Positions 4,346 through 59,687 are shown, counted from the stretch's first letter. The stretch: DNA of 64,000 nt from Calditrichia bacterium (GCA_028284905.1 JANQQU010000060.1:1-64000), one strand, 5' to 3'. Notes: a model not told the origin generated them from the sequence alone. Translations and numbers: made by a program.

Positions 4346-4385
4346 ATGAACGACTAGCTAATTGAACCAAACAAAAACGTTCGGA

Positions 4386-7752: not shown

Positions 7753-7757
7753 CTCCC

Positions 7758-7795
7758 GAAAAGAATTCAAAGATGCTACTTTGCGATTCCTTTTC
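7758..7795. terminator. imperfect hairpin after the membrane protein gene
   Basis: GAAAAG-AAT-CAAAG pairs with CTTTG-ATT-CTTTTC (with small bulges) 5 bp after the stop codon at 7752. There is no clear T-run downstream, so it would be a weak terminator or a 3'-end stabilising stem. Confidence 0.35.
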
Positions 7796-7850
7796 AAGGT
7801 ATATTGAATTAGTTAGATAATGATATTTGGTATACGGAAAGGAGCGATTC

Positions 7851-8240: not shown

Positions 8241-8244
8241 TCGC

Positions 8245-10748: not shown

Positions 10749-10774
10749 CCGCTGCCGAAAAAAGCACAGCGGCT
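10747..10774. terminator. GC-rich hairpin at the end of the 10275 gene
   Basis: AGCCGCTG and CAGCGGCT form an 8-bp perfect stem overlapping the stop codon, with a 12-base A-rich loop. No T-run follows, so it is a terminator-like or mRNA-protecting stem only. Confidence 0.4.
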
Positions 10775-10846
10775 GCAAACTTCTAATGTTTAAAACCTGG
10801 GGAGAGCAGTACTTAATGCAGCGCTACGCCGAACAAGCGACATTCT

Positions 10847-14494: not shown

Positions 14495-14733
14495 AGTGAG
14501 AACCTCCGTTAGACGCTGATGGGCAAAGATACCCAACGCAGCTGATGATTGTTTAGAATATCGCTCTTTCGTATATAAGTCATAGTCATTAAAAATCAAA
14601 GAAACCGGCTATTTATTCTTTCAGCATAGCCAATGAAAGTTGAGTTTACTGTCATCGCGAGGCGCTTTTTGCCGAAGCGATCTTCTGGTTGCATGCACCG
14701 TTGAGATTGCTTCGTCGTTGCACTCCTCGCAAT

Positions 14734-31345: not shown

Positions 31346-31655
31346 AGTGCTCTCTCCACACTTTGTTTTGGTTGAATGCATTGCTGAAAGAAACTACTGT
31401 TTATATCAACCAACCCTCCATTGTTGCTATATAAAAATCAATGATAATCAATATTAAAACGTTGAAGGCATGCCTAACGACATTCTACCTGTCCGCCCCT
31501 GTAATTATTGAATTTACCAAAGAAACTCTTAACTTCAAAGCTATATAGGTATAAAAGCATTTTCTCTCCAACATTACTTTCCCGGCTCAATTTTATACCA
31601 GAATTATCCCAAGCTATTGAAAAAGTTGGTCATTAAGCGCGGAAAAGCAGCAGTT
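31346..31655. other. gene-free gap, probable promoter of the 30572 gene
   Basis: 310 AT-rich bases between the start of the exported protein gene and the stop of the CHAT-WD40 gene. No ORF, no strong hairpin and no repeat is seen. It should hold the promoter of the minus-strand unit starting at 31345. Confidence 0.4.
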
Positions 31656-42065: not shown

Positions 42066-43754
42066 ATGCAGCGCAATTCGTTTGTTCTTTTGGTTTCTGG
42101 CTTACTTCTATTCAGCAGCGCTTTTTTCTATTTGACTGCGCAGCAATCTGTCGTTGCTATTGATGTGAATAATGACAATAAGTACGATGGCCATGGCGTT
42201 GCCTGGAAAGCACCTGGCGCCCCCGGAAATTTCGTGGTGACAACCCTGCATCTCGTCGCCGGAAGGCATAACATGAACGTCCAGACATCAGCCGGCGTTG
42301 GCAAAGCGAATATCGTTAAGGTATACACCGATGCCGATCTGGCATTGCTGGGAGTGCAAGGCCTAGCGCTCCAGCATATCCAGGCGGACAATGCCGCGGT
42401 GCCGCCCCAGTCTGCCCAATATTGGGCCTTTGACAACCTGAACAGGCGGTTTGATAATAGCCCAATCAAGATGCGCGGCAACAAGGCTCTGGGAAATTTG
42501 CATGTAAAGCTGAAAAAACCGCAAAATTTGCAAAAATTCACCCAAAATTTGTGTAAACCGCAGTACCCATCGTTGCAGGCAAGTGTGATCAAATTGAAAA
42601 CCCCGGTTCGCCCCGGCCATTCCGGTTCGCCAATTATCAATGCCAATGGACAGCTGGTTGGCTTAATCGATGGTGGGCTGGTGAATATCGGTATTCAAAA
42701 CGTATTTTGGTCCGTACCGGCAAAACATTTCAACACGCTTTGGAACCAGCCCCCGTACCAAAATCAACTGGGGCAATGCAAGAGCGACACAAAATTTCTC
42801 TACAGCGGTGCCAGAACGGTTGTCGAAGATGATCGCCGCTACATTGAGATCTTCTCTCTCGGCAAATCCGGGCAAATGAAATTTGAGGAGATTTATTATA
42901 CTATGCTGGAAGAAGATCAGCGATATGTCCAGGAGCTGCTACAAGAAGAAAGAGAATACTTAAGTCAGGCTTCATTTGAAGAGCAACAACGTCTCGGAGC
43001 GCCTGTAATGCTCGAGGAGTTGCTTCAAGAAACCGTCGAGGTTTATGTCGACTACACCACTGGTGCAACTATTGCGTTTCCGGTTGGATACGACATCACC
43101 CAGCAAGAGAAACGGAATGACGGTGATGAAGACCAACCACCCGCCGGGGTAAATCTGATCGAATTTGATGGCAGCGGCGAATGGGCAGATCTGGACGGAT
43201 TCATTGTTGTCGCAAATAAAGACAACAGATATGACACGGAAATTGTTCGGGAATGGTACAACAGATACCTGGAAGATGAATATGAAGTCTCGGAGCTAAA
43301 GCTCGAATTTTCATCGGCATTTAGCGATGCTTACGACGATAGTGAAGACTCCTTCTTTGACAGCTTTCATGCATATGTTTCCTATGATGGTGACAACAAC
43401 CAGGGTGAAGGAAACGAACAATTCGATTTTCAGAATCAGGATCAGTTTAACAATCAGAATGAATTCGAGAATCAGGATCCGGAACAATTTAACAATGAAA
43501 ACGAGAATGCTTTTGATAATCAGTTTCAGGAGAACAATAATGAGAACGAGTTTAACAATCAGTTCCAGGATGATGCCGGCAACCAGGAAGGCCAGGATGA
43601 ATTCTCAGTAACTTCTGCGATCACCATCGATGATTTTCAATTTTTAGGCATCGCTTTCAAGTCCGACAATCTGGAGAAACAAGGCCGGGATACCCGGAAA
43701 CGTTTTTACCTGATGGAGATTTGTATTTCACTGGCTGGCTTCCAGTACAATTAA
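42066..43754 (+). CDS. secreted trypsin-like protease with Asn/Gln-rich C-terminal segment
   Basis: 562 residues. Signal peptide (about 1-26). A Ca-loop-like stretch (DVNNDNKYDG, residues 33-42) opens the mature protein. Trypsin-like triad: His62 (TTLHLVAG), Asp91 (DADLALL), Ser186 (PGHSGSPI). A middle domain of acidic alpha/beta character follows, then an Asn/Gln/Glu/Phe-rich low-complexity tract (about 445-515, NQ- and FN-type repeats) that looks prion-like. The last ~45 residues (ITIDDFQFLGIAF ... FYLMEICISLAGFQYN) are almost the same as in the next gene. Start supported by AAAGGGG. It and its paralog are the only plus-strand genes in the island and probably act outside the cytoplasm. Confidence 0.87.
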   Translation: MQRNSFVLLVSGLLLFSSAFFYLTAQQSVVAIDVNNDNKYDGHGVAWKAPGAPGNFVVTTLHLVAGRHNMNVQTSAGVGKANIVKVYTDADLALLGVQGLALQHIQADNAAVPPQSAQYWAFDNLNRRFDNSPIKMRGNKALGNLHVKLKKPQNLQKFTQNLCKPQYPSLQASVIKLKTPVRPGHSGSPIINANGQLVGLIDGGLVNIGIQNVFWSVPAKHFNTLWNQPPYQNQLGQCKSDTKFLYSGARTVVEDDRRYIEIFSLGKSGQMKFEEIYYTMLEEDQRYVQELLQEEREYLSQASFEEQQRLGAPVMLEELLQETVEVYVDYTTGATIAFPVGYDITQQEKRNDGDEDQPPAGVNLIEFDGSGEWADLDGFIVVANKDNRYDTEIVREWYNRYLEDEYEVSELKLEFSSAFSDAYDDSEDSFFDSFHAYVSYDGDNNQGEGNEQFDFQNQDQFNNQNEFENQDPEQFNNENENAFDNQFQENNNENEFNNQFQDDAGNQEGQDEFSVTSAITIDDFQFLGIAFKSDNLEKQGRDTRKRFYLMEICISLAGFQYN

Positions 43755-43789
43755 TGTTTTCGGTAGTGTTAAAGAAGCAATGCTGCAAG

Positions 43790-43879
43790 CTGTCATCGCG
43801 AGGAGTGCAGCGACGTGGCGATCTTTCTATGGATGCAACTTATGAGATTGCTTCGGCAAAAAACGCCTCGCAATGACAG
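43790..43879. repeat. intergenic palindrome (CTGTCATCGCGAGG type), intact copy
   Basis: A 90-bp element beginning CTGTCATCGCGAGGAGTG and ending CGCCTCGCAATGACAG, an imperfect inverted repeat. It is the reverse complement of the copy at 14649-15831 (same internal GCCGAAGC.AT, GTTGCAT and GCACTCCTCGC blocks). It lies between the two paralogous protease genes. Confidence 0.82.
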
Positions 43880-43947
43880 ATCCAATAGCATTACATGTTT
43901 ATCACTACCATGCTTTCTAAATATTGATTTCACAAGGAGGCTACAGA

Positions 43948-45762
43948 ATGAACGTTTTAAGAGCATTTTCCTGCGCAGCTTTTTTGTCCATAACATTTCT
44001 GCTAACGATTGTAGCTTTCGCTCCTCTTTTAGCAGAGAGTCCTGCTGGTGCGGTAGTGGCCATAGACGCTAATCAGGATGGTAAATTTGATGGTCATGGC
44101 GTTGCCTGGAAACTGGATCCCGCGGATCCCGGTAGCTATGTCGTTACCACATTACACCTGGTCGCCGGTCGGGGAGAGATGACGATTCATTCCGAATATG
44201 GCCAGGGCAGCGCCGTTCTGGATCGGGCGTATACAGATGTCGACCTTGCCTTGCTGCGAGTCAGCGGCGTCGATTTACCTTCGATCGAACTGGACCTTTC
44301 CCCTACCCCTCCCCGTTCCGCGAATTATTGGGCCTATGACAATCTCGGTCGTAAATTCGACAATTTTCCGATCAAGCTCCGGGGAAAGAAGCAGTTGAAT
44401 AGTTTGCACGTTCAGCTTAAGAAGCCGGCGAATCTGGAAAAATTTACTGAGAATCTTTGTAAACCGGCGTACCCATCGATTGATTCAGACGTCCTCAAAC
44501 TTAAAACGCCGGTTCAGCCGGGGCATTCCGGCTCGCCGATCATCAATGATAATGGACAACTGGTCGGACTGGTCGATGGAGGTTTGATCAATATTGGCAT
44601 TCAGAACGTTTTCTGGTCAATCCCCGCCCATTCATTCGAACAACTTTGGCATCAGGACTTTTCCGGCAGAGAATTGGCACTGTGCAGCAGTGATGAGAAA
44701 TTCCTCTACAGTGGGGTTGTCACTGAAATCGACGAAGCGAACCGGTATGCCCAACTGGTTTCGCTTGGCTACTCCCATTCGATGCTATTTCGCGATATCT
44801 ATCAATCTTTACTTGACGAGGACCGCAAGAATGTTGACGATCTTCTTGAGGGGGATTATCTTTACAAAAACGGCCCGGCAATAACCATTGACGAACTTTT
44901 CCGCGACACGCTGGATATCTACATGGACTTTACCAGCGGAGCGATCATTTCTTTTCCCAGGTTCCGTTTTGCCGTCCAGCAGTTTGACATGGACGATCTC
45001 CGTGACAAGTTCCTGGAATTAGAGAACGAATTAAAACAGAAAAAAGCGCATTTAGATCGGGAAATTCAGGAAGAGAAAGAAATGAACGGTGGTGTTAGTG
45101 AAGAAATTAAACGTGAATATAACAAACGGCTCGCCGAAATTAAGCAAAACTATATTCCGGCACCTCCACCTGGTATGAATTTAATTTATTTTGATGGCAG
45201 CAATTTTCTTGAAGGAGAATTAAACGGGGTCATCGCTGTCGCACAAAACAACTCAAAAGCAGAAAGCGATGCGGTAAAAAAATGGTTTGAAAAATTCCTT
45301 AACCATGAATCTTTTAATATCTACATCATGGGAGAAATGCGCTTCGATAAAAGCTTCACCAGTCAATTCGACTACAATGTTGAAGATTGGATGGACAGGT
45401 TTGGCTATGAGGATGATTTAGATTATGACGATTCAGAATCATCTTTCTACAGTGGATACTCTGAATTGATGATGTACAAAGTAAATGGCCTCGCTCCCGG
45501 ATATTTTGACTTGATAGACCGTCAGGAATCACTTGAAGAAGGGACGGCTGAATATGCCGCCTTAGATCAGGAAATTCGCCAGTTTGAAATCGACAACCAG
45601 ATCCTCGACTATGTCATCGAGTCTTCAATTACAATCGACCAGTTTGATTTTCTCGGTGTTGCGTTTAGAGCGGGTGATTATGCTGAATTAGAGCGGCATA
45701 TTCGCAAGCGTTATTATTTGATGAAGATTTGCAATATTCTTTCCGGTTTCCAATACAACTAA
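43948..45762 (+). CDS. secreted trypsin-like protease, paralog of the preceding gene
   Basis: 604 residues from the ATG at 43948, which follows AAGGAGG at a 7-base spacing; an upstream ATT-type extension has no site. Signal peptide (about 1-30), then a DANQDGKFDG calcium-loop-like stretch (residues 40-49). Triad: His70 (TTLHLVAG), Asp99 (DVDLALL), Ser194 (PGHSGSPI). The middle has a charged coiled-coil-like insertion (about 355-400, KFLELENELKQKK) instead of the Asn/Gln-rich tract of its neighbour. The C-terminal ~45 residues (ITIDQFDFLGVAF ... YYLMKICNILSGFQYN) are shared with the neighbour and are probably a targeting or interaction tag. It converges on the caspase gene at 45773 with only 10 bases between. 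Confidence 0.88.
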   Translation: MNVLRAFSCAAFLSITFLLTIVAFAPLLAESPAGAVVAIDANQDGKFDGHGVAWKLDPADPGSYVVTTLHLVAGRGEMTIHSEYGQGSAVLDRAYTDVDLALLRVSGVDLPSIELDLSPTPPRSANYWAYDNLGRKFDNFPIKLRGKKQLNSLHVQLKKPANLEKFTENLCKPAYPSIDSDVLKLKTPVQPGHSGSPIINDNGQLVGLVDGGLINIGIQNVFWSIPAHSFEQLWHQDFSGRELALCSSDEKFLYSGVVTEIDEANRYAQLVSLGYSHSMLFRDIYQSLLDEDRKNVDDLLEGDYLYKNGPAITIDELFRDTLDIYMDFTSGAIISFPRFRFAVQQFDMDDLRDKFLELENELKQKKAHLDREIQEEKEMNGGVSEEIKREYNKRLAEIKQNYIPAPPPGMNLIYFDGSNFLEGELNGVIAVAQNNSKAESDAVKKWFEKFLNHESFNIYIMGEMRFDKSFTSQFDYNVEDWMDRFGYEDDLDYDDSESSFYSGYSELMMYKVNGLAPGYFDLIDRQESLEEGTAEYAALDQEIRQFEIDNQILDYVIESSITIDQFDFLGVAFRAGDYAELERHIRKRYYLMKICNILSGFQYN

Positions 45763-45772: not shown

Positions 45773-48700
45773 TCAGCGCTGAATATCCAGCGCTGTTTCT
45801 TCCATTTTATTCAGCTGATAGATCGGCGCTGTTTTTAACCACTGATAAATATTGTCCGGGGTGCGCCAGTAGTGCAACCGCCCCTGGCGGGTTATTGTGT
45901 ATATACCTTTTTTATCCGCAGAGAATACCGCTTGCAGCACATCATCGTCATGCTCCAAATTTGCCAGCATCAACCCATCCGCCTGCCAGAGACGGGCAAA
46001 TTTTTCGGAAATTGTGAGGATGAACTTACCGTCTGCAGCGTAAATCGCCTGCATCACATTGTTGGCATGAATCAGTGTATCCAGCGGCTGTTTCGTATCT
46101 TCAACATCCCAGAGATAAGCATTCTGGTCTGTACAAGCTGTAAGGATGTATTTGTCATCGGGAGAGAAAACCGCCATGTTTACCTCGCCGTTATGAACCA
46201 GCGAGTCCGCTTTTTTCAGATCGCTTCCCCAGATGTAAACGCTATTCCCCTCAAATGCGCTTACAATGTATTGAGCATTGTGGGAATACATGGCAGAATA
46301 GACCTCCCCATCGTGCGCGACGGAATCTTTTCGGCCCCTTTGCCACTGCCAATCATAGGCATAACCGCCCTCGGTCGCAATTACCACCCGGGAAGCATCA
46401 CCGGAAAAACTCGCAGCGCTAACGGCGTCGTAGTGCAAAGAGGAATCCAACACATTACCGTTATGATCCCACAATCGCACCAAGCCATCATCTTCGGTAA
46501 CGGTGAGTAACCAGGCGCTGGCAGGGTTTAGCGAAAAAACAATTTTGGTCAGAGCGTTTTCAGTAACACTCTCCAGCCGACCGGGTAAATCGACTAGCAC
46601 TTCCTGTTGGTTATATTGAAATAGTTCACCATCATGTGTTGCCAGGAAGAAATTGTTTCCCGTTGGTGAAATCGAAATATGACTAATTGTGCCATGTCTA
46701 TTCAAGCTGTCTGCGAATACCGACAGCGGCAAATGCCAGCGACGGGCTGTACTGTCCTCAGCGGCAGTGAGCACTACCTTGCTATCCCGGGAAAAAATCG
46801 CATGATTTATTTCATTGTTGTGCTTAAAACGCGTAACTAATTCGCCACCGTCATCCCATAAACCAGCAGTTGAGTCCCCGGAAGTTGTCAGGAGATAATT
46901 CCCATCCGGAGAAATTTGTAAGTGAGTAATATCCGCCGTGTGGCTCTCCGGCAAATTTTTCAGGAATGCACCATTGCTTTGCCAGAACTTGACACTACCA
47001 TCTGTTCCGGCGGTTGCGAAACGTCCATCAGGATAAAAAACGGCATGGCTGATTCGCTTTGGATGAACCAGCGTATCAACGATCTGCTTTGCAACGATAT
47101 TCCACAGCCAGGCGGTAGAATCCATGGAGATACTCAACACCTGATTGCCATCGGGAGAGAACATCGCTTGTATAACATCCCGCGAATGCGCCAACGTATC
47201 TGCACAAACGCCTCCCTCAGTCCATAAATATACATAGCCACTATCAGCCACAGACAAAAGTTTTAGCGGTGTAGCGTCTTCAAGAAATCTGGCGTTTTTT
47301 ACTGCCATCCCATGCGGAAATTGTATAAGGGGCTCCGCATTCCCATTCAGCATGGATAGCGTATCCAACGCAGAAATTGTCAGGATTTTTTGCCTGTCGG
47401 CAGAAAGCTGCGGCAGCATATTGCTCAACTGATGTGGCACTCGCCGAGCAACAGTGCCATCTCTGTTCCACAGTGTCAAAGAATCGCCGGATGCCGTCAA
47501 CACCTGATTCTCATCGGCAGCAAACACTGCCCAGCGAACCTCCCGGTTAAATTTTGGCAGCTCAAACACCTGACCATTTTCGTTCCAACCAACGACGTTT
47601 CCGTTTAATGCATCGCCGGATGCCGTTAGCCATTCCTGGCCATCCCGGGAAAAATCTACCCAGTACACCTGGCTATTGTGGGTCATATTATCCACATAAT
47701 GAGACTTCCCCGCCAGCTTCCCCTGATAAGCATCGCTAATGATTCGGGATACAGAAGCCGGAGGATAATTTTCCGCAGTACGATATGCTGCTTCGGCAAT
47801 GCGCAAGGCGCGGGTATTATCCTTCGGCAAAGTTTTTTGGGCCTCAATCGCCAGCAAATTTGCTTTGGCAATATTGGCTTCCCGGATTGCTTCTTCCCGT
47901 TCAAATAACGCCCAAACTGTTAACCCGGTCAATGCAAGAATGACGCTGAGAATAATATTCCGTCTCCGGCGATCAAGCTTCTCTTTTAGGCGCACGCTGC
48001 CTTTAACAAACTTGTTCTCTACAGCATTAAACCAGCGCCCGGTTTTATCAAGATCCCCGCGCAAAAGGCTCAGGCGAGGGTTACTATTCCAGAGGTACTT
48101 CTCATTTTCCTCTTTGTCCCGCCAGTCCCTTGCCGCATTGTTTACCTGCCCACGCAACAACAAACGGTCCTTACCGGCTTCTCCGACCCATTTCCAGAGG
48201 GTGCCCCAGGCACTAATAAGCGCATCGTGAGCAGGCTCAACATATTGTTGCTTCTCGCGATCGACACCGCGCGTAACCAGGCGGGATTGCACCAGCAGAT
48301 CGATCACTTTCTTGACGCGAGCATTCTCAGCCTCATCGCCATAATCCAGCTCATCCATCAAGGCCCGCCGGCTGGCCATTTCACCACCCTCGAGAGAAAC
48401 CAATCGCAGAACGATTCGCCGCATCGTGTCCCGATAGTCATATTTTTTACATATTTCAAGTATGACGTCGATATCGCCCTTAGGAGTGTTTTCGCCCAGG
48501 GCAAGAACCAGCGCCTCTCGAAATGCGGAAGCATCATTATATTTCTTTCCAATCAATGATTGCAATTTTTCTGAGTTCGCAGATCCCGTTTCACCCTTCT
48601 GTAATCGTTGCAAATCGTTTTCCGTCAGGGAAAAACTACACAGTTCCCGCTTTGCAGCAGAAGAAAGCACTTGCTTGCCATAATGCTCATCAACAGCGGC

Positions 48701-50845
48701 ATAATTGAGTAAAATAGATTGACATTGATCGAGCAACTCGCTTCCCAACAATTGTTTCATCTCGTCGAGAAAGCGCAACTCATCCGGAAAGTGTTGGTCT
48801 TTTGCATCCGTTAATTTCTGAACGACTTCCGGGGAGATCTCCTCCGCGGCAAACTCAGCAACCAGTTTATCCCACAATTCTGTAGTAACCATATAACCCA
48901 TAGCGGACTTAATTTCTTCCCGCAGGGTTCTTTCCCCAAGGAATTCCTTGTTAACGATTTTGCCCAGCTTTTCTATGAGTATCCGGGGGCATTCGCTTTC
49001 GCGCAGCTTGTTTAAGCTGCCCTCGTCGATCATATATCCAAATTTCAATTCAGACTCATAAATCTCATCCGCCCGGCTGCGTAAAGCGCCACGTACGCCA
49101 CCCAGCTGCCGATAGTCATCGGCTTTCAACGCCCGATCTTCCCGGCCGCTGCTTTTGTACGCTTCATATAATTCACTCAGGGTATACGAAAGTAGTGGTA
49201 AAGCGCCGGGTGACAGGCTCACCTCATTAATAATTTCATCAACTATTTTCGGAGGGTCGAAAATCAATACGACTTGAAAGGTGGGCATAACAACCACCTC
49301 CCGCAGCTCTTCCGGGGTAAACCAGGGCACCGTCACCCGGCCATCCTGCCAATAACTTTGCAATGCCCCCTTGTCCAGTTGGGGCTCAAAATCCGAGCGT
49401 ACTGTAATAATTAACAGAAATTGATTCTCCGGCGCTGCATCCAACAACGATTTTACTAACAGGGCGAAGTTCTCTCTTTCTGTTTCATCAGTACAGCGAG
49501 TGATCAATTCTTCGTACTGGTCGATCACCAGCACTGTTCGCTTTATTTCCAATTGAGTCTGCCAATGCTTCAACTGGGCTTCGCTGAATCCATTGTTTTC
49601 GACAGCTCCCTCTGGCAGCAAACCTTTTCCCTGCAGATCTTTCATTAATGCGCTTGTCGGATGTTCACCGGGACGCATCACGGGTAAAATATTAAACCCT
49701 TCCCTTCGTAAACGCGGTAATAGTCCCGCTTTTACCACTGACGATTTTCCGGCTCCGGAAGCAGCAGCAACAACAAGCATCTTTCGTTTTAACAGCGAGA
49801 AGTCAGTTTCCGTAGGACCTTCTGCGGCTTCGTTTGCCGTAGTTCCATCAACAAACACTTTGCTCTGCAAATCGCTTATCACCCTATCCCGACCAAAGAA
49901 TAGATCATGGTGTTTTTCCTCGAAAGCGGTTAATCCTCTGTAGGGGTTCTCGCGGGGAATCGGCTCCAGGTTCAAGCGATGGCGGGGATGTAGGAAGATG
50001 AACTCTCCCTTATCATGTTTCTTTAGCGGGAAGAAGCCCGGAGTTTGCCGCTTTTGCTCACCGGCACCAATCGTTTGTGGCTCTACCTGGTCGCGGATAT
50101 ATGCATATAGCTCAGTCGCCGTGATAACGCCATCCCCTTCGTCCTGTACTTTCGCATCCGCTTCTCCACTAACGCCCTGTATAAGCGCGCGGGCAAATGG
50201 TGAATGATCCTCCAGGTCATTATCGGTGCCGCGATCGCCTAACGCCTTCTTGTCTGTCTTCAACACATCCAACGCTTTCTGGTCGTATGCGGAAGAGGTG
50301 ATGACCTGCCAGGCCGGTTCCCGGATAAAGCGATCGAACCTTTCCTGGTAGATCTTCTTCGGACGGAAGACCCCACCGGCCCGGGTGGATGACCACTTGA
50401 AAGCGCCGGAAAAGCAGCAATCCAGCACCAGCATGACATGACGGCACGGTAGCGACAACAAAGCTTCATGCATCAAATTCATGGGCACGAATGTCTTTAC
50501 GTCAGACTGACTGGCATCCGCCGGCAGGATGTAGCCAGCGGGTCCATCATCGCCATCATCAGCAATGCCATGGCCGGCGTAATAAAAAAAGACCCGGTCT
50601 TTTTGGCCAACTTTCTCTTTGATGGTTTTCGTCAGAAGGGTTTCAATGTCTTTCCGGGTGGCATCTAACAGCGGCGGGTATACCCGAAAAGCATGCTGCG
50701 TAGCGAGCACTTCCCCAATCTTCTGCGCATCATTGACAGCGGTTTGCAGCTTCGAGAAGTGCTGATATTCGTTGATACCAATAATAAAGGCATGACTATT
50801 CTCGAATCTCTTCGCAAGCTTGTTATCCGTGTTGGCTTTTGGCAC
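45773..50845 (-). CDS. caspase (C14) - STAND ATPase - TM - WD40 protein
   Basis: 1690 residues from a GTG start (GGGAG 8 bases upstream). Caspase domain with His92 and Cys144 in the same motifs as the paralog at 36451. ATPase with Walker A AASGAGKSS, in which the first Gly is Ala361 while Lys367-Ser368 are intact, and Walker B LVIDQYEEL. A ~200-residue insertion (about 600-805) splits the part that is continuous in the paralog (between RSRADEIYES and RRIVLRLVS). A membrane helix (NIILSVILALTGLTVWALF) is near 965-985, then WD40 repeats to the end. The protein is otherwise collinear with 36451-41865. It starts 104 bp downstream of the caspase-hydrolase gene and could be co-transcribed with it. 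Confidence 0.92.
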   Translation of the reverse strand: MPKANTDNKLAKRFENSHAFIIGINEYQHFSKLQTAVNDAQKIGEVLATQHAFRVYPPLLDATRKDIETLLTKTIKEKVGQKDRVFFYYAGHGIADDGDDGPAGYILPADASQSDVKTFVPMNLMHEALLSLPCRHVMLVLDCCFSGAFKWSSTRAGGVFRPKKIYQERFDRFIREPAWQVITSSAYDQKALDVLKTDKKALGDRGTDNDLEDHSPFARALIQGVSGEADAKVQDEGDGVITATELYAYIRDQVEPQTIGAGEQKRQTPGFFPLKKHDKGEFIFLHPRHRLNLEPIPRENPYRGLTAFEEKHHDLFFGRDRVISDLQSKVFVDGTTANEAAEGPTETDFSLLKRKMLVVAAASGAGKSSVVKAGLLPRLRREGFNILPVMRPGEHPTSALMKDLQGKGLLPEGAVENNGFSEAQLKHWQTQLEIKRTVLVIDQYEELITRCTDETERENFALLVKSLLDAAPENQFLLIITVRSDFEPQLDKGALQSYWQDGRVTVPWFTPEELREVVVMPTFQVVLIFDPPKIVDEIINEVSLSPGALPLLSYTLSELYEAYKSSGREDRALKADDYRQLGGVRGALRSRADEIYESELKFGYMIDEGSLNKLRESECPRILIEKLGKIVNKEFLGERTLREEIKSAMGYMVTTELWDKLVAEFAAEEISPEVVQKLTDAKDQHFPDELRFLDEMKQLLGSELLDQCQSILLNYAAVDEHYGKQVLSSAAKRELCSFSLTENDLQRLQKGETGSANSEKLQSLIGKKYNDASAFREALVLALGENTPKGDIDVILEICKKYDYRDTMRRIVLRLVSLEGGEMASRRALMDELDYGDEAENARVKKVIDLLVQSRLVTRGVDREKQQYVEPAHDALISAWGTLWKWVGEAGKDRLLLRGQVNNAARDWRDKEENEKYLWNSNPRLSLLRGDLDKTGRWFNAVENKFVKGSVRLKEKLDRRRRNIILSVILALTGLTVWALFEREEAIREANIAKANLLAIEAQKTLPKDNTRALRIAEAAYRTAENYPPASVSRIISDAYQGKLAGKSHYVDNMTHNSQVYWVDFSRDGQEWLTASGDALNGNVVGWNENGQVFELPKFNREVRWAVFAADENQVLTASGDSLTLWNRDGTVARRVPHQLSNMLPQLSADRQKILTISALDTLSMLNGNAEPLIQFPHGMAVKNARFLEDATPLKLLSVADSGYVYLWTEGGVCADTLAHSRDVIQAMFSPDGNQVLSISMDSTAWLWNIVAKQIVDTLVHPKRISHAVFYPDGRFATAGTDGSVKFWQSNGAFLKNLPESHTADITHLQISPDGNYLLTTSGDSTAGLWDDGGELVTRFKHNNEINHAIFSRDSKVVLTAAEDSTARRWHLPLSVFADSLNRHGTISHISISPTGNNFFLATHDGELFQYNQQEVLVDLPGRLESVTENALTKIVFSLNPASAWLLTVTEDDGLVRLWDHNGNVLDSSLHYDAVSAASFSGDASRVVIATEGGYAYDWQWQRGRKDSVAHDGEVYSAMYSHNAQYIVSAFEGNSVYIWGSDLKKADSLVHNGEVNMAVFSPDDKYILTACTDQNAYLWDVEDTKQPLDTLIHANNVMQAIYAADGKFILTISEKFARLWQADGLMLANLEHDDDVLQAVFSADKKGIYTITRQGRLHYWRTPDNIYQWLKTAPIYQLNKMEETALDIQR

Positions 50846-50871
50846 AGAAATACTCCCGGGGGATTATATTC

Positions 50872-50908
50872 AAATACCCGGACGGAATTAGTTTCCGCCG
50901 GGTATTTT
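50872..50908. terminator. strong hairpin between two caspase genes
   Basis: AAATACCCGGACGGAA pairs with TTCCGCCGGGTATTT (one mismatch, short TTAG loop). It lies 41 bp after the stop of the caspase-hydrolase gene and 27 bp before the GTG of the next caspase gene. T-tracts are short on both strands, so it may only attenuate read-through into the caspase-WD40 gene. Confidence 0.5.
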
Positions 50909-50949: not shown

Positions 50950-53900
50950 TTACCATTCAACTTCCTTCAGAGCGGCCAGGCCGGTTTCTGAGGAGAAGTA
51001 ATTCAAGTGGTGACAGGCAACATTGTTCCGCACCGGTGCCGGGTTACGATTGCTATCCACACCGAGGATACTGTCTACTTGCACAGCGATGTCATGGGAT
51101 TGATTGCTGAAGAGCAGCCTTAGCGCCCCGGATTTCGCCAGCTTGTTAAACAGCTGCGGAAAGAGCTTATCCGATGGCTCATCATAGTTTTCTGCTTCAC
51201 CGGCAAGAATGGTATAGCGAATACAGGGATCGCCACTGCCGTTTAACCCTTTAATGAAATCGGATGTTGGATTCATTTGCTCCAGGGTTTTGGTGATTTT
51301 CTTGGAGCGATTCAGCAATGTTAACGCAAACGGTGCAATCATCGGCACGGTATTGATGGATAGCGTCGCCAGTGTGCCGAGCAGTTTACGGCCTTTGTCG
51401 ACCATACCAAAAGGAGAGCCAACATTCGGGGTGCCGCACATTACCAGGTGATCGACCATGCCATTGCCGCCATTCTGCTCAATAAAGCAACGGGAAACCA
51501 ATCCACCCATGGAGTGGGCCAACACGGTCAGCTTCTTGTCGTCGTTCGGGCCAAAGCCGGCGGTTTCCAGCTGCGTCTTTAGCGCTTTTGCGGTATCATC
51601 AATTAAAGTGCTGAGGTTTTCATAGTCGTAGGTAAGCACCAGGTCAAATTTTTGATCCAGTGTTTTGCCATCCGCATCTTTCGCATCGCGCAGACCTTTG
51701 GCAATAATTTCTGTATCACCAATAATGCCATGCACGCAAAGCAAGACGTTCTTCGCGTCCTTCACCTTGCTGGCGAGTCCGGTATTCTTGCGTTCTACGC
51801 TGCCGTCGTCTTTATAATCTACCCAACAGAGCTGGTTTGGATTGTCCTGCTTCAGGTAAGTTTTGAAGAAATACATCTTCAGTGCTTTACCAAGACTACG
51901 ACGGTTGTCGGGAATATCCGGCACGTAATCGATGCTGACATTGGTCTTACCATCATCTCCTTTATCGACATCGCCGATTAGCCAGATATGCTCACCATCG
52001 AACGCCATCGGGAGTACCTGCTCATCATCCTTCAGCTTCATATCCAGTTCCATTTCCAATGGATTGTCGGCGAGGGTGTCGTTTACGTCCTGCGGCAAAT
52101 CGCTGATTTCGAGGATGTTCTCATCATTACCATCAGCATCACGCGTGCCACCAGCAAAATTCACCATCTCCATGCCGCGGTTTTCCAGGTATTCATAAAT
52201 ACCGGAACCAGCGCTGACGCTACGACTATTGGTCTTAGCAGCTGACAGACTAAGATCTGCCTTGATAGATGGATGGCCTTTGATCTTGATCTTATTATTG
52301 GCCAGGGCAACGTCTTTTTTCCCTACCTGATCTAGTTTCCGAACCGTTTTCAGACGAATGGTTTTGGTAAACCACTCATTCTTATACATCTTCTTGCCTT
52401 TCGGCGGTGCGCCACCGGCACGAGAGCTGCTCACTTCAACATCCAGGCCGATCTCTTCAGTTTCAAAGAGAAAATCATCGACTTTCTCCGTGCTGACAAT
52501 CAGCTTGAAGATGTCAATGTTTTCGTTGTCTGCATCATCCAGCCAGATTGAAAAGTTGTTCGGGTTGTCTTCATCCAACCCTACCTCTAAAGCAACCGGA
52601 TCTTTCCCCGCCTTAATCGGTGGGTAATTGTAATAGGATTTAATACCATATCCTTTTTTCTCAGTCTCATCCGTATCCCAGTCTCTAACGGTATGGACAT
52701 CAGAAAAATGCAGCAGTGTAAAGAATAGCTCTTGCCCACTTTTATTCGTCACTTCGAAGTTCAGATTAAAGTATGGTGCATCTTCCGGCAATTGGGCCGG
52801 GTCGAAGTCGATGGTTATTTCCTGCTCATTGTCGAAATCGCCTTCATTAAAAATAAAATTGTCATTTCCTTCGGTTATATCGCGAACATTAAAGGATATC
52901 TTTTTGCCGTCGATTTTCGTAAAGGCATTTTGCAGATTAACTGTTCTTTCCCAGTGGATCACTTTTTCCAAGATGCCAACGATCTGTTCTGCCGAAGCGT
53001 CGGAGGTACCTTTCGCATATTGCACGACTATGTCGAGTTCTAATTGCTTGAGTGTAATTTTGTTATCTTTGGCGATCAACCCATATTTAACGCCCTTGGT
53101 GTCATCCGTGAAAGCAACATGCACTTTCCGGTTCTTTGCCACGGCTTTTTCGATGGCAGCTTTTTCAGATTTACCGGCATCGAGGAAAACGACCATCGGC
53201 TCCAGCGGAATGTCGGTTACTTCTCCCCAATATTCCTGCCCGATTTCACCTTCAAAATCTCCGCTAAATTCAATTTCACTTTCTGTTGGACCAACAACAG
53301 TGGTGCTGGCGCCCCCCAAAGAGCGGCCTTTTAACTGCTCGGTATAAATTTCCAGCTGGGTGCTCTTGGAGGGATCGTTCGGCAAGCCGTAAATTGAGCC
53401 GTGGGCCAAACGCCACTTTTTCTTTTCATAATGAATCATAAACCGTTCACTGCTCGCAGCCTCCCCACCCAAAAAACCGGCATTGGCATTGAATCCCATA
53501 AATGTTTCAAATTGCGGATTTTGCTTCAGGGCGTTTTTCCGTACTTCCGAGCGGCAGCGCACAAAGATATCTTTGTAGGTAAGTGACTGCTTACTATTTT
53601 CTAGAATAGACATTAGCGCTTCGGTAAAGATACCGGATGGCACGGTGGGATCTTCTTTTGCTGTTTCGGCCCGGTCGCAAGCAGCCAGGAGGATGTGCTT
53701 ACTGCCGGGAATGATCACTTCGGGGTTTTTGCTGGTATCTTTATCAAGGATTTTTTGGTATGCGCCGTCGAGATAACTTTCCAGGGGACGCGGCTCTTTT
53801 CTACCAGCGGAAAAACGAGGTACTAATTGATTGAACTCATCGACATCGCGGGTGGCGGAACCGGAGTGACAGCTGTCGAGGATTAACACCAGATGTGGAT

Positions 53901-54309
53901 TGTTCTTCGCAATCCTGTGCAGCAGCATGGCAAATTCTTTATCAGCCAGGTCGTATTTGCCGTCCTCGCGGCTATCCTGAAGTACAATACCTTCATCCTT
54001 GCCATCCGGGAAGTATTTTTTAAACTCCGCCGCGGAGGGGTTTTGGGCACCATGGCCCCCGTAAAACAGCACTGCAACGTCATCGGCCGTTGCCTTGGTC
54101 AGGAAGTCGTTCATATAAGCAATGACATTTTCCCGGGTAGGCTTCTCGCTGCCACTGCTTCGCAGAGATTTCATTTCCAGATTTTTAGTAAAGCGTTTTT
54201 TCAGGTATGCTTCAAAACGATCGGCATCATGCTCACATCCTTTTAGAGCACTGACACCGCCGAGATATTCATTGATTCCGATGGTTAAGGCATAAACTTT
54301 ACTGGCCAT
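50950..54309 (-). CDS. caspase (C14) fused to an alpha/beta-hydrolase
   Basis: 1119 residues with a strong AGGAGG site. Residues 1-280 are a caspase-like domain: His86 (LFYGGHGAQ) and Cys147 (LILDSCHSG). Residues ~310-640 include a region with the spacing and composition of DUF4384-type sandwiches often joined to bacterial caspases, and an acidic linker follows. From about 860 a hydrolase domain begins: LLCVHGIIGD, nucleophile elbow LAHSMGG (Ser933), CGTPNVGSPFG, and His1100/1101 in VACHHLNYF, resembling PGAP1-like or lipase-type enzymes. Protease and presumed esterase/lipase in one chain suggests that the caspase frees or activates the hydrolase, but no cleavage site is demonstrated. First of the two minus-strand caspase genes; the small VHL-like gene lies just upstream. 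Confidence 0.9.
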   Translation of the reverse strand: MASKVYALTIGINEYLGGVSALKGCEHDADRFEAYLKKRFTKNLEMKSLRSSGSEKPTRENVIAYMNDFLTKATADDVAVLFYGGHGAQNPSAAEFKKYFPDGKDEGIVLQDSREDGKYDLADKEFAMLLHRIAKNNPHLVLILDSCHSGSATRDVDEFNQLVPRFSAGRKEPRPLESYLDGAYQKILDKDTSKNPEVIIPGSKHILLAACDRAETAKEDPTVPSGIFTEALMSILENSKQSLTYKDIFVRCRSEVRKNALKQNPQFETFMGFNANAGFLGGEAASSERFMIHYEKKKWRLAHGSIYGLPNDPSKSTQLEIYTEQLKGRSLGGASTTVVGPTESEIEFSGDFEGEIGQEYWGEVTDIPLEPMVVFLDAGKSEKAAIEKAVAKNRKVHVAFTDDTKGVKYGLIAKDNKITLKQLELDIVVQYAKGTSDASAEQIVGILEKVIHWERTVNLQNAFTKIDGKKISFNVRDITEGNDNFIFNEGDFDNEQEITIDFDPAQLPEDAPYFNLNFEVTNKSGQELFFTLLHFSDVHTVRDWDTDETEKKGYGIKSYYNYPPIKAGKDPVALEVGLDEDNPNNFSIWLDDADNENIDIFKLIVSTEKVDDFLFETEEIGLDVEVSSSRAGGAPPKGKKMYKNEWFTKTIRLKTVRKLDQVGKKDVALANNKIKIKGHPSIKADLSLSAAKTNSRSVSAGSGIYEYLENRGMEMVNFAGGTRDADGNDENILEISDLPQDVNDTLADNPLEMELDMKLKDDEQVLPMAFDGEHIWLIGDVDKGDDGKTNVSIDYVPDIPDNRRSLGKALKMYFFKTYLKQDNPNQLCWVDYKDDGSVERKNTGLASKVKDAKNVLLCVHGIIGDTEIIAKGLRDAKDADGKTLDQKFDLVLTYDYENLSTLIDDTAKALKTQLETAGFGPNDDKKLTVLAHSMGGLVSRCFIEQNGGNGMVDHLVMCGTPNVGSPFGMVDKGRKLLGTLATLSINTVPMIAPFALTLLNRSKKITKTLEQMNPTSDFIKGLNGSGDPCIRYTILAGEAENYDEPSDKLFPQLFNKLAKSGALRLLFSNQSHDIAVQVDSILGVDSNRNPAPVRNNVACHHLNYFSSETGLAALKEVEW

Positions 54310-54605
54310 GAAAACCTCCTGTAATGTAATTAAAAACCGATTGGGCCGAATAGAATTAGCTAAGCTTGTAAGATCTGCTATGCAATATTATTTCTGCGAG
54401 GAACAACCACTCAGCATCTTTTAGAGATGTATATACACCGATATGGCGTGACTATCATTATGCACAAACAATGCAGACCTAAACGATCTGCATTGTTATC
54501 CAAGAATTGATACAGTTGAATTACTTTGTAGAATAGAAAAAGTTGGTAAAAAATATCTTGCTGTATTATACGGTTATGAACCGCCCGCTCCGATTTTACT
54601 GAAGA
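54310..54605. other. gene-free gap before the caspase-hydrolase gene
   Basis: 296 AT-rich bases between the start of the caspase-hydrolase gene and the end of the small VHL-like gene. I see no ORF, repeat or clear terminator. It likely contains the caspase-hydrolase promoter. Confidence 0.4.
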
Positions 54606-54881: not shown

Positions 54882-55070
54882 GATAATTCTCCTCGTTTTT
54901 ACAGTTTCGGGAAGTTACTCTTCTCAGATATTATATCAAAATTTTTTTTACTGCTCTTTCTACTATGAAAAACACTACATTAGGTATTGCTTCAGGCCTA
55001 TATTGGAAGTATGATGTTTTCTAATTATATTATGTGATATTGTCGGGAAAACTTGCTAGGGTTCAAGGAC

Positions 55071-58000
55071 ATGAATCGATTGATTGGCTACGGGATTTTT
55101 ATTTACTCGCTGATTCTGACAGTTTTAATATTTGGTCAGTCTTCCTCCTCCAATTCTTCAATAGACATTCCCTCCATTTACAACATCAAGTTTGATCATT
55201 TTACTGTTGAAGATGGTCTCTCTCAAAATTCGATAGAATGCATTATACAAGATCACAAGGGCTTTCTTTGGTTCGGCACTAATGATGGCCTTAATCGCTA
55301 TGATGGGTATCGCTTCAATGTTTACAAACACAACCCTCAAGAGAAAAGCACCTTAAGCAACAACAACGTTCTTTCACTTTACGAAGACACTTCCGGTACA
55401 CTGTGGATCGGCACTCTCGGCGGCGGCTTGAACCGCTTTGATCGCTCGACTGAGACTTTTACCCATTTTCAATTTGACGAGAAAAACCCCAACAGTATCA
55501 GTGACAATATCGTCTGGTCGATTCTTGAAGATCATCAGGGGCAGCTATGGATTGCCACACAAAACGGCCTGAATAAATATTTGCCTGGCAACCAGTCTTT
55601 TCAACGTTTCATGGCTGATCCCGGTAGCCAAGACAGCTTAAGTGATCCCTGGACAATTTCATTGGCAGAAGATCGCCACAATAATCTTTGGGTTGGCACT
55701 ACCGGAGGGGGGCTTAATAAATTCGATCCTGCAAAGAATGTTTTTAAGCATTATCGCCATGACAATCAAAATTCAGCGAGTTTGAGTTTTGACAGGGTTC
55801 GGACAATTTACCGGGATCGATCCGGGGCTCTCTGGGTTGGTACCTGGGGCGGTGGATTAAACAAATACATCGAAGAAACAGACAACTTCAAGCAATTTCG
55901 ACATCAAGCGAATGATCCAAGCAGTATTGGCAGTGATCGGGTGCGGGCAGTTTATGAAGATGCTGTTGGCAACTTCTGGGTTGCAACACGCAGAGGATTG
56001 GATCTCTTCGATCCATCGACAGAGACTTTTATCCATTTTCAACACTCTCCGGACAACCCGCAAAGCCTTAGCAAGAACAGTATTTTATCTATCAATGAAG
56101 ACCGATCCGGAGTGCTTTGGGTGGGCACTCGTGACGGTGGATTGAACCGGCATGACCGGGCAACAGAGATCTTTCACCATTTTCGGCATGATCCTTCAAA
56201 CCGGTCCGGACTAATTGAAAACAATATTCGCGCTTTCCAGGAAGATGCCCAGGGGAATATTTGGGTGGGAACATCTACCCAGGGTGTTCAGGTCTTTGAT
56301 CGAAAAACCGGCATTTTCAATCATTTCAACGCCAGTAATAGCAGCAGTGCATTACAAGGCAACTCTGTTTGGTCTCTCTATGAGGACAATCAAAATAGAA
56401 TGTGGATCGGCACACGTGCAGCCGGTCTGGCATTATACAATCGGCAACAAAACACATTTCGTCATTTTAAACCGGTTGCGAACAACAGCAATAGTATTAG
56501 CGATGATTGGGTGATGACAATTTTCCAGGATTCCCGGGGCAGCATTTGGGCCGGTACCTGGGGTGGTGGATTGAATCGCTTTGACGAAACAAGCCAAACC
56601 TTTCAACGCTTTCAACATTCGCCGGATGATCTGGCAAGTTTAAGCAACAACCTGGTTCGTTCTATTTGCGAAGACCAAGCCGGTAATCTTTGGGTAGGCA
56701 CTTCAAACGGTTTAAACCAGTTTCAGCCTGCTACACAAACATTCAAGCGCTTCATCCATGATCCTGAGACTCAAAACAGTCTTAGCCATAACCGCATCAA
56801 CTCCGTTTACAAGGATAGCCAAGGGCGGCTTTGGATCGGCACCTTCGGCGGCGGCTTAAACCTGTGGGACCCGCAAACGGAAACTTTTACAGCTTATCGG
56901 GAAAACGATGGACTTCCCAATGATGTTGTTTATGGCATACTGGAAGACGAAAATGGGCACTTGTGGCTAAGCACCAATTTTGGTATATCCAACTTCAACC
57001 CGGCAACGAAAGAGTTTAAAAATTATGATGCCCGGGATGGATTGCAAAGCAATGAGTTTAATGGCGGTGCCTACGCAAAAACCGGGAGTGGTGAGCTGCT
57101 TTTCGGTGGTATTAATGGCTTCAATCTCTTTCATCCGAAAGAAATTGTCGATAACGCATATACACCTCCAATCGTTATTTCCGCATTCCAGCGCTACAAC
57201 AGCGACGATGCCGCCGGTGTTGCCATTGTTGAAAAAGGAATTTCCGAGAAGGACGGTCTGGAATTAACCTACAAAGACAATATCATTTCTTTTGAATTTG
57301 CAGCATTAAGCTTTCGCAACGTATTAAAGAACCAGTACGCATACAAGCTGGAAGGCTTCAATGATCACTGGATCCAGCTGGGCACCAAGCGCGACGTCAC
57401 ATTCACCAATCTTGATCCGGGCGATTATACGCTGCGCGTACGCGGCAGTAACAACGACGGTCTCTGGAACGAAGCAGGCGCCTCTCTCAATATTACCGTA
57501 ATCCCTCCCTGGTGGAAAACCTGGTGGGCTTACGCGATGTATACGCTACTGATTGTCGGCTTCCTGTATTGGCTGCGCCAGTCGGAATTGGAAAAAGCCC
57601 AGGAGAAACTGGCACAGGAACGCCGGGTCAGCGAACGGCTTCGCAAAGTAGATAAATTGAAAGATGAATTTTTAGCCAATACTTCTCATGAGCTTCGCAC
57701 ACCTTTAAATGGCATCATCGGTATCAGCGAATCGATCATTGACGGCAGCACCGGGGATATTACCGATGCCACGAAACGCAATCTGGTGCTGGTCGCATCC
57801 TCCGGTAGAAGACTGGCCAGCCTGGTAAACGACATTCTCGATTTTTCCAAGCTTAAAACCCATGACCTGACTTTGCAAACAAAGCCACTGGACATTAATG
57901 TACTTGTGGACTTAATGCTAAAATTTACCGAGCCACTGTTAGCATCGAACAAAAACTTACAGATGATCAAAGATATCCCTGCGGATATCCCGGCGGTTAG

Positions 58001-59687
58001 TGGGGATGAAAATCGTTTGCAGCAAATTCTCCACAACCTCATTGGCAATGCCATTAAATTTACCGCCGAGGGCACTGTATTAATTAAAGCGCGCCTTGAG
58101 GGAGATTTTGTCAGGCTATCGATTACCGATTCTGGGATTGGCATTCCAGAGGATAAATTAGAAGCTATTTTCAAATCGTTTGAGCAGGTAGATGCATCGA
58201 CAACCCGCGAGTATGGCGGTACCGGGTTAGGATTACCGATCACCAAACAATTGGTGGAACTGCATGGCGGCAGCATCCAGGCGACCTCCACCCTGGGACA
58301 GGGCTCAACATTCTCCTTTACCTTGCCAATTGCGGATACCGCGCCGGAAGCACCTGCAAGTTCTGCCCCCGGCATATCCCGGATTCACACAACGGATGCA
58401 CCACAATCATCGCCAATTTCCGTTCGGGCCAATGGAAATCCTTCCGAGTTTCGGATCCTGGTTGTCGATGATGAACCCATCAACCAGCAAGTGTTGGTCA
58501 ACCATTTAAACAATCTAAACTACGAAGTGATTCAGGCCTTTAGTGGCACAGAGGCGCTTGAATTGTTAAAAAGCACCCAGCAGTTTGATCTAATTCTTCT
58601 GGATATCATGATGCCTCGCATGTCCGGCTACGAAGTTTGCCAAAAGATCCGGGAGACCTATTTACCCAGTGAATTACCGGTCATCATGATCACTGCCAAA
58701 AATCAGTTAGTGGACCTTGTGGAAGGATTCTCTTCCGGCGCGAATGATTACCTGAGCAAACCTTTTTCCAAGGATGAATTGATTGCCCGGATGAAGACCC
58801 AGTTAAACCTGGCAAATATTAACACGGCTTACGGACGATTTGTGCCGCATGAGTTTTTGCATTCTTTACATCGGGAGAGCATTGTAGACGTAAAATTGGG
58901 CGACCATGCCCACAAGGAAATGACCGTTCTTTTTTCCGACATACGTAACTACAGCTCTTTCTCGGAACAAATGACCCCGGAAGAAAATTTCAAATTCCTC
59001 AACGCTTACCTGAGACGAATTGGCCCGATTATCCGCAAGCACAATGGATTTGTAAATCAGTATTATGGCGATGGTATAATGGCACTCTATCCAGAGAAAG
59101 CAGATGATGCCGTCAATGCCGCAATTGAGATGCAAAAGAAGCTGATTGATTATAATCAATATCGGCAAAGAAAAAATCGTCAGGTTATCCGCATTGGCGT
59201 TGGCCTCCACACCGGGCCTCTAATGATTGGTATTATCGGCGATGAATTACGGTTGAATGCCGGCGTTGTCGCAGACACGGTAAATACTTCCTCGCGAATG
59301 GAGGGATTGACTAAATACTATGGCGCACCAATTATTATCAGCGAAGACACCATGAGCAGAATGTCTGACCCGGAAAAACATGAGTGTAGATACCTTGGGC
59401 GCGTCCAGGTAAAAGGCAAGAAAAAGCCGATCCGTATTTATGAGATCCTTGAGGGGAATCAACCGGAAGATATTCGTTTAAAACTGGAAACAAACGCTGA
59501 CTTTGATCGTGGCCTGGCCCTCTATTTCGAAGGAAATTTCGCAGAAGCCGGTGTCTTCTTCAAAAAAGTTTTCAACATCCACGCCGGGGACAAAGCGGCT
59601 GAGCATTATCTTAAGCGCTGTGCGGAGTATCTGGTTAAAGGTTCTCCCGAAAACTGGGATGGCGTTGAAACCATGGAAAGCAAGTAG
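55071..59687 (+). CDS. hybrid sensor histidine kinase with Reg_prop/Y_Y_Y sensor, receiver and class III nucleotide cyclase
   Basis: About 1538 residues from the ATG at 55071 (AGGG 8 bases upstream; a TTG at 55053 is less likely). N-terminal hydrophobic signal/anchor, then ~14 two-component-regulator propeller units (LWIGTxGGGLNRFD) to residue ~690, a Y_Y_Y domain and a membrane helix (WAYAMYTLLIVGFLYWL). Cytoplasmic part: HisKA with His873 (TSHELRTPLN), HATPase_c, a receiver with Asp1178 (LILLDIMMP), and a class III cyclase with metal Asp1290 (FSDIR) and Asp1334 (YYGDG), and Asn/Arg in DTVNTSSRME. The usual adenine-contacting Lys is Gln1330. The output is a cyclic nucleotide rather than a DNA-binding domain. 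Single gene, divergent from the VHL-like gene. Confidence 0.93.
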   Translation: MNRLIGYGIFIYSLILTVLIFGQSSSSNSSIDIPSIYNIKFDHFTVEDGLSQNSIECIIQDHKGFLWFGTNDGLNRYDGYRFNVYKHNPQEKSTLSNNNVLSLYEDTSGTLWIGTLGGGLNRFDRSTETFTHFQFDEKNPNSISDNIVWSILEDHQGQLWIATQNGLNKYLPGNQSFQRFMADPGSQDSLSDPWTISLAEDRHNNLWVGTTGGGLNKFDPAKNVFKHYRHDNQNSASLSFDRVRTIYRDRSGALWVGTWGGGLNKYIEETDNFKQFRHQANDPSSIGSDRVRAVYEDAVGNFWVATRRGLDLFDPSTETFIHFQHSPDNPQSLSKNSILSINEDRSGVLWVGTRDGGLNRHDRATEIFHHFRHDPSNRSGLIENNIRAFQEDAQGNIWVGTSTQGVQVFDRKTGIFNHFNASNSSSALQGNSVWSLYEDNQNRMWIGTRAAGLALYNRQQNTFRHFKPVANNSNSISDDWVMTIFQDSRGSIWAGTWGGGLNRFDETSQTFQRFQHSPDDLASLSNNLVRSICEDQAGNLWVGTSNGLNQFQPATQTFKRFIHDPETQNSLSHNRINSVYKDSQGRLWIGTFGGGLNLWDPQTETFTAYRENDGLPNDVVYGILEDENGHLWLSTNFGISNFNPATKEFKNYDARDGLQSNEFNGGAYAKTGSGELLFGGINGFNLFHPKEIVDNAYTPPIVISAFQRYNSDDAAGVAIVEKGISEKDGLELTYKDNIISFEFAALSFRNVLKNQYAYKLEGFNDHWIQLGTKRDVTFTNLDPGDYTLRVRGSNNDGLWNEAGASLNITVIPPWWKTWWAYAMYTLLIVGFLYWLRQSELEKAQEKLAQERRVSERLRKVDKLKDEFLANTSHELRTPLNGIIGISESIIDGSTGDITDATKRNLVLVASSGRRLASLVNDILDFSKLKTHDLTLQTKPLDINVLVDLMLKFTEPLLASNKNLQMIKDIPADIPAVSGDENRLQQILHNLIGNAIKFTAEGTVLIKARLEGDFVRLSITDSGIGIPEDKLEAIFKSFEQVDASTTREYGGTGLGLPITKQLVELHGGSIQATSTLGQGSTFSFTLPIADTAPEAPASSAPGISRIHTTDAPQSSPISVRANGNPSEFRILVVDDEPINQQVLVNHLNNLNYEVIQAFSGTEALELLKSTQQFDLILLDIMMPRMSGYEVCQKIRETYLPSELPVIMITAKNQLVDLVEGFSSGANDYLSKPFSKDELIARMKTQLNLANINTAYGRFVPHEFLHSLHRESIVDVKLGDHAHKEMTVLFSDIRNYSSFSEQMTPEENFKFLNAYLRRIGPIIRKHNGFVNQYYGDGIMALYPEKADDAVNAAIEMQKKLIDYNQYRQRKNRQVIRIGVGLHTGPLMIGIIGDELRLNAGVVADTVNTSSRMEGLTKYYGAPIIISEDTMSRMSDPEKHECRYLGRVQVKGKKKPIRIYEILEGNQPEDIRLKLETNADFDRGLALYFEGNFAEAGVFFKKVFNIHAGDKAAEHYLKRCAEYLVKGSPENWDGVETMESK

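Follow-up and report, generated by a model that had tools for sequence, protein, structure and literature searches.

A caspase and an alpha/beta-hydrolase in one polypeptide, encoded beside a caspase–nSTAND1 gene in a Calditrichia bacterium: a possible arginine-directed zymogen

A 64,000-nucleotide stretch of DNA from a Calditrichia bacterium (GCA_028284905.1, JANQQU010000060.1:1-64000; hereafter the window), belonging to an 8.55-Mb genome in 93 contigs, carries a gene whose product combines a caspase with an alpha/beta-hydrolase. The gene occupies the minus strand from 54309 to 50950 as a single frame of 1119 amino acids; the plus strand is full of stops. It begins with the ATG at 54309, 5′ of which a ribosome-binding site, AGGAGG, is found at 54315–54320 of the same strand. 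A preliminary description of this DNA had reported a caspase and an alpha/beta-hydrolase in one polypeptide at 50950–54309; the open frame confirms this, and the strand, missing from that description, can be added. The positions it gave for the catalytic residues H86, C147 and S933 are right, and these residues are conserved among relatives. All parts of the fusion gene given below lie on the minus strand.

The caspase (peptidase C14) domain (residues 1–275; 53485–54309) is delimited by Pfam, by conservation, and by metacaspase structures matched in both sequence and fold searches. Pfam Peptidase_C14 covers residues 6–269 (E 7.7e-25) with an intact His-Cys dyad, the codons of H86 and C147 lying at 54052–54054 and 53869–53871, respectively. 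The S1-pocket residues C25 and D28, forming a C-x-x-D motif, and D145, within D-x-C, are present and conserved; they correspond to Cys92, Asp95 and Asp211 of TbMCA2, which have been described as S1-pocket residues (PMC4357240). By analogy with metacaspases of basic P1 preference, whose residues these match, the fusion caspase would be expected to cut after Arg or Lys rather than after Asp. Fold, His-Cys dyad and acidic S1 residues are shared with metacaspases and orthocaspases such as TbMCA2 and Arabidopsis metacaspases 4 and 9, for which a like Arg/Lys preference may be expected; to these the fusion protein adds a beta-rich module, a joiner and a hydrolase. Between the putative p20 and p10 parts, a linker (residues 149–183; 53761–53865) with the conserved residues R154, R165 and R174 is predicted to be flexible, its AlphaFold2 predicted local distance difference test (pLDDT) score being below 50, and is a candidate autoprocessing region.

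The alpha/beta-hydrolase domain (DUF7379; residues 851–1119; 50953–51759) is recognized by Pfam, conservation, similarity to lipase A structures, and AlphaFold2 modelling. The Pfam DUF7379 match, to an alpha/beta-hydrolase-type family, spans residues 856–1012 (E 1.9e-15; 57.7 bits against a curated cut-off of 33) and recurs at E<=0.01 in 16 of 17 aligned members. Weaker Pfam matches over the same domain are to PGAP1, LCAT, Abhydrolase_1 and palmitoyl-protein thioesterase. The nucleophile S933 (codon 51511–51513) sits in the motif AHSMGG and makes up a putative Ser-Asp-His triad with D1073 (51091–51093) and H1101 (51007–51009), both assigned by position and conservation. All three residues are conserved across the hydrolase-bearing rows of the alignment, and D1073 falls in a stretch, 1045–1082, modelled with pLDDT below 50. 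A hydrophobic helical stretch at about 970–1004, visible in hydropathy and in the AlphaFold2 model, may be a lipase lid. Sequence matches to lipase A-type structures are weak, and the fold matches are to generic alpha/beta-hydrolases. The second hydrolase noted earlier at 23883 does have the same fold but belongs to a different family, matching LCAT/DUF900 instead of DUF7379; with 25% identity over 88 amino acids around the nucleophile elbow, it was rejected as a sister domain. A search with the domains of the window around stand-alone DUF7379 genes of two distant genomes found no caspase, CHAT or STAND match nearby, and on plasmids the hydrolase domain has close relatives only within the fusion.

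The region between the two enzymes consists of two parts. An N-middle beta-rich module (residues 281–665; 52315–53469) is defined by AlphaFold2 and by profile comparison with paralogues of the same genome, in which it matches the C-terminal parts of two hydrolase-less caspases (hhalign probability 97.8, E 4e-12). These paralogues, open frames of 691 and 699 amino acids, stop where the joiner of the fusion protein starts; they stand in tandem beside a CHAT-nSTAND1 gene (4884–6956, 7397–9493 and 9497–12001 of locus L044, contig 92), and a hydrolase-less version also occurs on a Nostoc plasmid. A sub-threshold Pfam match to DUF4384 in the paralogues hints at a DUF4384-like module. The middle region of the window protein has no Pfam match of its own, and assignment to a known fold was abandoned because no structure in the PDB convincingly matched the whole region (template-modelling scores on the query were below 0.2); a weak resemblance, limited to part of the region, is to an Ig-like domain of a Pycsar cyclase. 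The joiner proper (residues 666–850; 51760–52314), delimited by conservation, AlphaFold2 and profile comparison, is present only in hydrolase-bearing members and contains three predicted flexible loops with conserved Arg. What had been called a long beta-rich and acidic linker is indeed beta-rich, and acidic stretches do exist at 481–600 and 721–780, but the region is more than a linker, being predicted to form conserved beta-rich structure.

The fusion is found well beyond this genome. A scan of a genome collection yielded nine relatives, mostly full length and 40–49% identical, in Calditrichota, KSB1, Methylibium, Polymorphobacter (two copies in one isolate), Desulfobulbaceae and Sphingomonadales, while plasmids of Nostoc, Anabaena, Rhizobium and Deinococcus encode end-to-end relatives of about 28–30% identity. 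Two genomes of the same taxonomic family carry the fusion, one of them with two copies, and so does a distant genome, G370. It is infrequent, being present in 4 of 385 sampled genomes (a count that includes the genome of the window) and, within the phylum to which G370 belongs, in 1 of 301. Full-length relatives, which span Calditrichota, KSB1, Proteobacteria, cyanobacteria and Deinococcus, keep the catalytic residues. A unique fusion due to a local assembly error, a possibility raised in the preliminary description, is ruled out, as is an artefact of annotation: independent genomes and isolates as well as complete plasmids show an identical arrangement of the parts, and full-length homologues exist in distant bacteria. 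Nothing was found in favour of this explanation, whose probability is negligible. Separate trees of the caspase, middle and hydrolase parts contain the same fully supported split, which sets cyanobacteria, Rhizobium, Deinococcus and G370 apart from the rest, and have several subclades in common. Because the three trees agree on this main split, one old fusion that has since moved between lineages is the simplest reading.

Downstream of the fusion gene, across a gap of 104 bp, lies a second minus-strand gene (45773–50845) which according to Pfam encodes a caspase with intact H92/C144, an nSTAND1 ATPase and a WD40 sensor. The fusion is accordingly linked to a STAND nucleoside triphosphatase (NTPase) with sensor repeats and an intact protease dyad, as in a caspase–STAND (apoptosome-like) system. 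Such partner genes, like the old and conserved family to which the fusion belongs, had been overlooked in the preliminary description. The same caspase-nSTAND1 type lies downstream in genome G003 (L035), in Methylibium (L015, two copies) and in Nostoc ATCC 53789 (L033, there beside the hydrolase-less form); in Desulfobulbaceae (L018) it is convergent. On a Nostoc plasmid (L029), a coding sequence of 3,057 amino acids joins the whole fusion protein to a caspase and nSTAND1. CHAT-nSTAND or CHAT partners are found at L013, L014, L019 (on both sides), L020, L030 and L031, and a second caspase gene lies two genes away at L032. Altogether, 13 of the 17 loci with readable context have a caspase, CHAT or STAND partner, and nSTAND1 is present in nine of the 17. 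The genome encodes about 14 nSTAND1 genes in its 8.55 Mb, four of them inside the window; chance adjacency of the fusion gene and an nSTAND1 gene would be uncommon, with the reservation that such clustering makes a simple probability unsafe.

Separately, the end of the L029 protein (3491–12664) resembles, by eye only, a periplasmic-binding-protein-type sensor. The four nSTAND1 genes of the window are large, lie within about 35 kb and share the minus strand (15834–20978, 31656–36245, 36451–41865 and 45773–50845); two have an N-terminal caspase and WD40-type repeats, and two have CHAT-like N-termini combined with WD40 or HEAT repeats. This group is predicted to be a dense cluster of conflict-system sensors.

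Conserved arginines are found in loops predicted to be flexible. In an alignment of 17 hydrolase-bearing members, loop A (residues 625–642, SRAGG, within the N-middle module) contains Arg or Lys in every sequence, position 630 being Arg in most and Lys in two. The joiner follows with loop B (693–702, NSRSVSAG; 52204–52233), in which R696 is kept in 16 of 17, loop C (721–728, GTRDADG; 52126–52149), in which R723 is invariant (17/17), and loop D (800–807, NRRSLG; 51889–51912), in which R804 is kept in 16 of 17. When the whole protein (mean pLDDT 68.5) and the middle region alone (74.6) are modelled with AlphaFold2, the loops at 625–642, 693–702, about 721–728 and 800–807 receive low confidence. 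R723 ranks first in the whole protein for conservation relative to its surroundings, and R165 and R174 of the p20/p10 linker are among the top six. Within residues 288–850, all three Arg columns conserved to at least 90% lie in low-pLDDT loops, as against none of the 27 other columns conserved to that degree (Fisher p 2.5e-4). Each sequence has on average 2.9 copies of [ST]R[GSADN] at 600–830 compared with 0.6 in shuffles, and the motif is likewise enriched in the caspase domain (2.6 vs 0.7), with no enrichment in 281–599 or in the hydrolase. In the partner caspases of the window (45773–50845) and of G003, a TRAGG motif resembling loop A follows shortly after the catalytic loop. R696, R723 and R804 are thereby marked, on conservation and modelling, as candidate cut sites.

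The preliminary description had suggested a zymogen, with the caspase cutting an acidic linker to free or activate a lipid hydrolase. Of this proposal, the zymogen idea gains from the acidic S1 residues, the conserved Arg of the flexible loops, and the STAND, CHAT and caspase neighbours. Cleavage in an acidic linker, of Asp type, is unlikely and was rejected: acidic stretches are present, yet the S1 residues favour a basic P1, and it is Arg that the loops conserve. Because the joiner-loop Arg are conserved and the acidic S1 residues kept, a zymogen cut after joiner arginines is favoured instead. The resulting hypothesis is a caspase-lipase zymogen in which Arg-directed proteolysis arms the hydrolase within a STAND-ATPase conflict or cell-death system, for and against which we see roughly equal weight. 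A partner that combines a clan-CD protease, either caspase or CHAT, with an nSTAND1 ATPase and with sensor repeats (WD40 in the present locus) would detect a trigger, possibly phage-related, and then oligomerise. The partner protease, or mere proximity, would activate the fusion caspase, for which the conserved S1 residues suggest an Arg/Lys preference. Cuts after R696, R723 and R804, possibly also after R630 and in the p20/p10 linker, would split the DUF7379 hydrolase from the caspase module, as conservation and predicted flexibility suggest. The freed hydrolase may attack membrane lipids or lipid-linked substrates and so kill or arrest the cell, and the caspase may cut further targets.

The same arginines could be read in other ways, being structural or inhibitory instead. 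They might act as pseudo-substrates in the caspase S1 pocket, activation then being conformational and any cleavage secondary. A precedent exists in the clan-CD protease gingipain RgpB, where an Arg of the prodomain occupies the S1 pocket and keeps the enzyme inactive (PMC4357240), and the acidic S1 residues conserved in the fusion caspase would suit such a role. However, several Arg in separate loops resemble several cut sites more than one inhibitor, and further copies of the Arg motif are found in the region of the p20/p10 linker and behind the partner caspase's catalytic loop, which makes pseudo-substrate inhibition quite improbable. Alternatively, the protein may be one scaffold for two independent effectors, caspase and hydrolase working in parallel without separation and the Arg serving in structure or partner binding. 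Conserved non-Arg residues in the folded parts of the joiner would fit this arrangement, which we nevertheless consider unlikely, because the conserved Arg are confined to loops of predicted flexibility, the places where conservation for structural reasons would be expected least.

Several observations weigh against the zymogen hypothesis itself. The Arg motif was spotted in an initial alignment of the window protein with eight homologues before being tested on a larger set, which makes the statistics partly post hoc; the aligned sequences share ancestry and are hence not independent draws; and the low pLDDT stems in part from a shallow, gappy alignment of 13 rows. A strong hairpin (50871–50907, minus strand; z -3.4), followed only by a weak T run, lies between the fusion gene and its partner, and co-transcription of the two is therefore not assured. 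A partner of the STAND, CHAT or caspase type is missing at four loci, L012, L017, L036 and L043. Phage records and viral contigs gave no match to the fusion, and a phage or viral origin was dismissed on these grounds. As an aside on L043, the gene next to the fusion in G370 (13503–15098) has, in its N-terminal sequence, the look of an Hsp70-type ATPase.

With regard to purpose and substrate, the system might serve regulated death, development or stress signalling rather than phage defence, with the hydrolase acting as an esterase or thioesterase on proteins or small lipids; this can be compatible with the zymogen mechanism. Such a role would agree with a large host genome (8.55 Mb) rich in caspase and STAND genes, with the weak matches to palmitoyl-protein thioesterase and PGAP1, to which LCAT must be added, and with the finding of no phage or defence record. 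It appears somewhat improbable all the same, as patchy distribution, plasmid carriage and STAND/CHAT neighbours suit conflict systems, and caspase and alpha/beta-hydrolase effectors have been placed in predicted counter-invader systems (PMC7159879, PMC8195603).

Among known systems, the closest parallels are NTPase-centred. In VMAP systems, caspase domains are always accompanied by a neighbouring alpha/beta-hydrolase gene, and proteolytic processing has been proposed as a last step in deployment (Kaur et al. 2020, PMC7159879). In these ternary, NTP-dependent conflict systems, caspase and alpha/beta-hydrolase are predicted to cooperate beside NTPase sensor components, as they may here, but the hydrolase is a separate gene accompanied by MoxR and vWA, whereas the window encodes one polypeptide with an Arg-loop joiner and a caspase- or CHAT-nSTAND1 partner. 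A Pfam scan found no MoxR ATPase, vWA or VMAP component among the neighbouring open reading frames of the window, and membership of the VMAP/MoxR-vWA class was rejected on that account. The EACC1-caspase class was likewise set aside: NCBIfam caspase_w_EACC1 scores 45.3 bits on the fusion and 75.8 on the partner against a cut-off of 140, the EACC1 gene itself not having been searched for. Caspase, trypsin and lipid-hydrolase effectors have further been described together with nSTAND1 in death-domain-type effector systems (Kaur et al. 2021, PMC8195603), in which STAND NTPases are coupled to caspase or membrane-lipid alpha/beta-hydrolase effectors. The locus differs from these in its fused effectors and in that no effector-associated (EAD) adaptor was recognised, in an adaptor search that was not exhaustive. 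Caspase-hydrolase gene pairs in NTPase conflict systems have thus already been predicted, and the single-polypeptide fusion is a variant of them.

Other comparisons are more distant. The CARD-NLR/gasdermin and LypABC systems also combine an NLR-like ATPase, one or more proteases and a lytic effector, and phospholipases can replace gasdermin in CARD-NLR variants (PMC13236601); their proteases, however, are trypsin-like, in contrast to the caspase fused to a hydrolase here. No gasdermin or CARD match was found in the window proteins scanned, and the trypsin-like genes at 42066–45762 have apparent signal peptides and sit on the strand opposite to the fusion gene. A metacaspase-amidase-GDSL-lipase protein of Chitinophaga pinensis (Asplund-Samuelsson et al. 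2012, PMC3501461) likewise combines a lipase with a caspase homologue in a single chain, but with a GDSL lipase and an amidase, as a single reported sequence of unrelated architecture. The SAVED-CHAT type III CRISPR effector (PMC11229360) provides immunity via a proteolysis cascade with a CHAT protease, CHAT being a common partner of the present fusion; it differs in its cyclic-nucleotide trigger through CRISPR and in lacking a lipase fusion. In the literature searched, which covered few subscription papers, no paper on DUF7379 or on a caspase-DUF7379 fusion was found.

In its most specific form, the proposal is a single-polypeptide death module: an Arg-specific caspase carrying its own lipase, silenced by a joiner with several Arg sites and armed by an apoptosome-like caspase- or CHAT-STAND partner, a counterpart of caspase-activated membrane killing in which a lipase replaces gasdermin. 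For this full version the balance tips slightly towards doubt. If true, it would be a bacterial example of caspase-armed membrane attack, compact and easy to test; it would account for the joint occurrence of caspase and alpha/beta-hydrolase genes in NTPase-centred conflict systems, and would extend the gasdermin-like theme by a lipase branch. With protease, candidate cut sites and putative lytic enzyme in one protein, point mutations could show whether proteolysis arms the lipase.

Three minor features of the window may be added. The two trypsin-like proteases are encoded on the plus strand by related genes in tandem (42066–43754 and 43924–45762), which converge on the caspase-STAND gene. Next to a CHAT-nSTAND1-WD40 gene, both in the window (30572–31381) and in a KSB1 genome (L014, 18284–19009; E 2e-57), lies a gene for a small protein that has an apparent signal peptide, matches nothing in Pfam and is a possible conserved partner. 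Finally, a hybrid two-component protein is encoded at 55053–59687, with regulator propellers, a kinase, a receiver and a C-terminal guanylate-cyclase domain.

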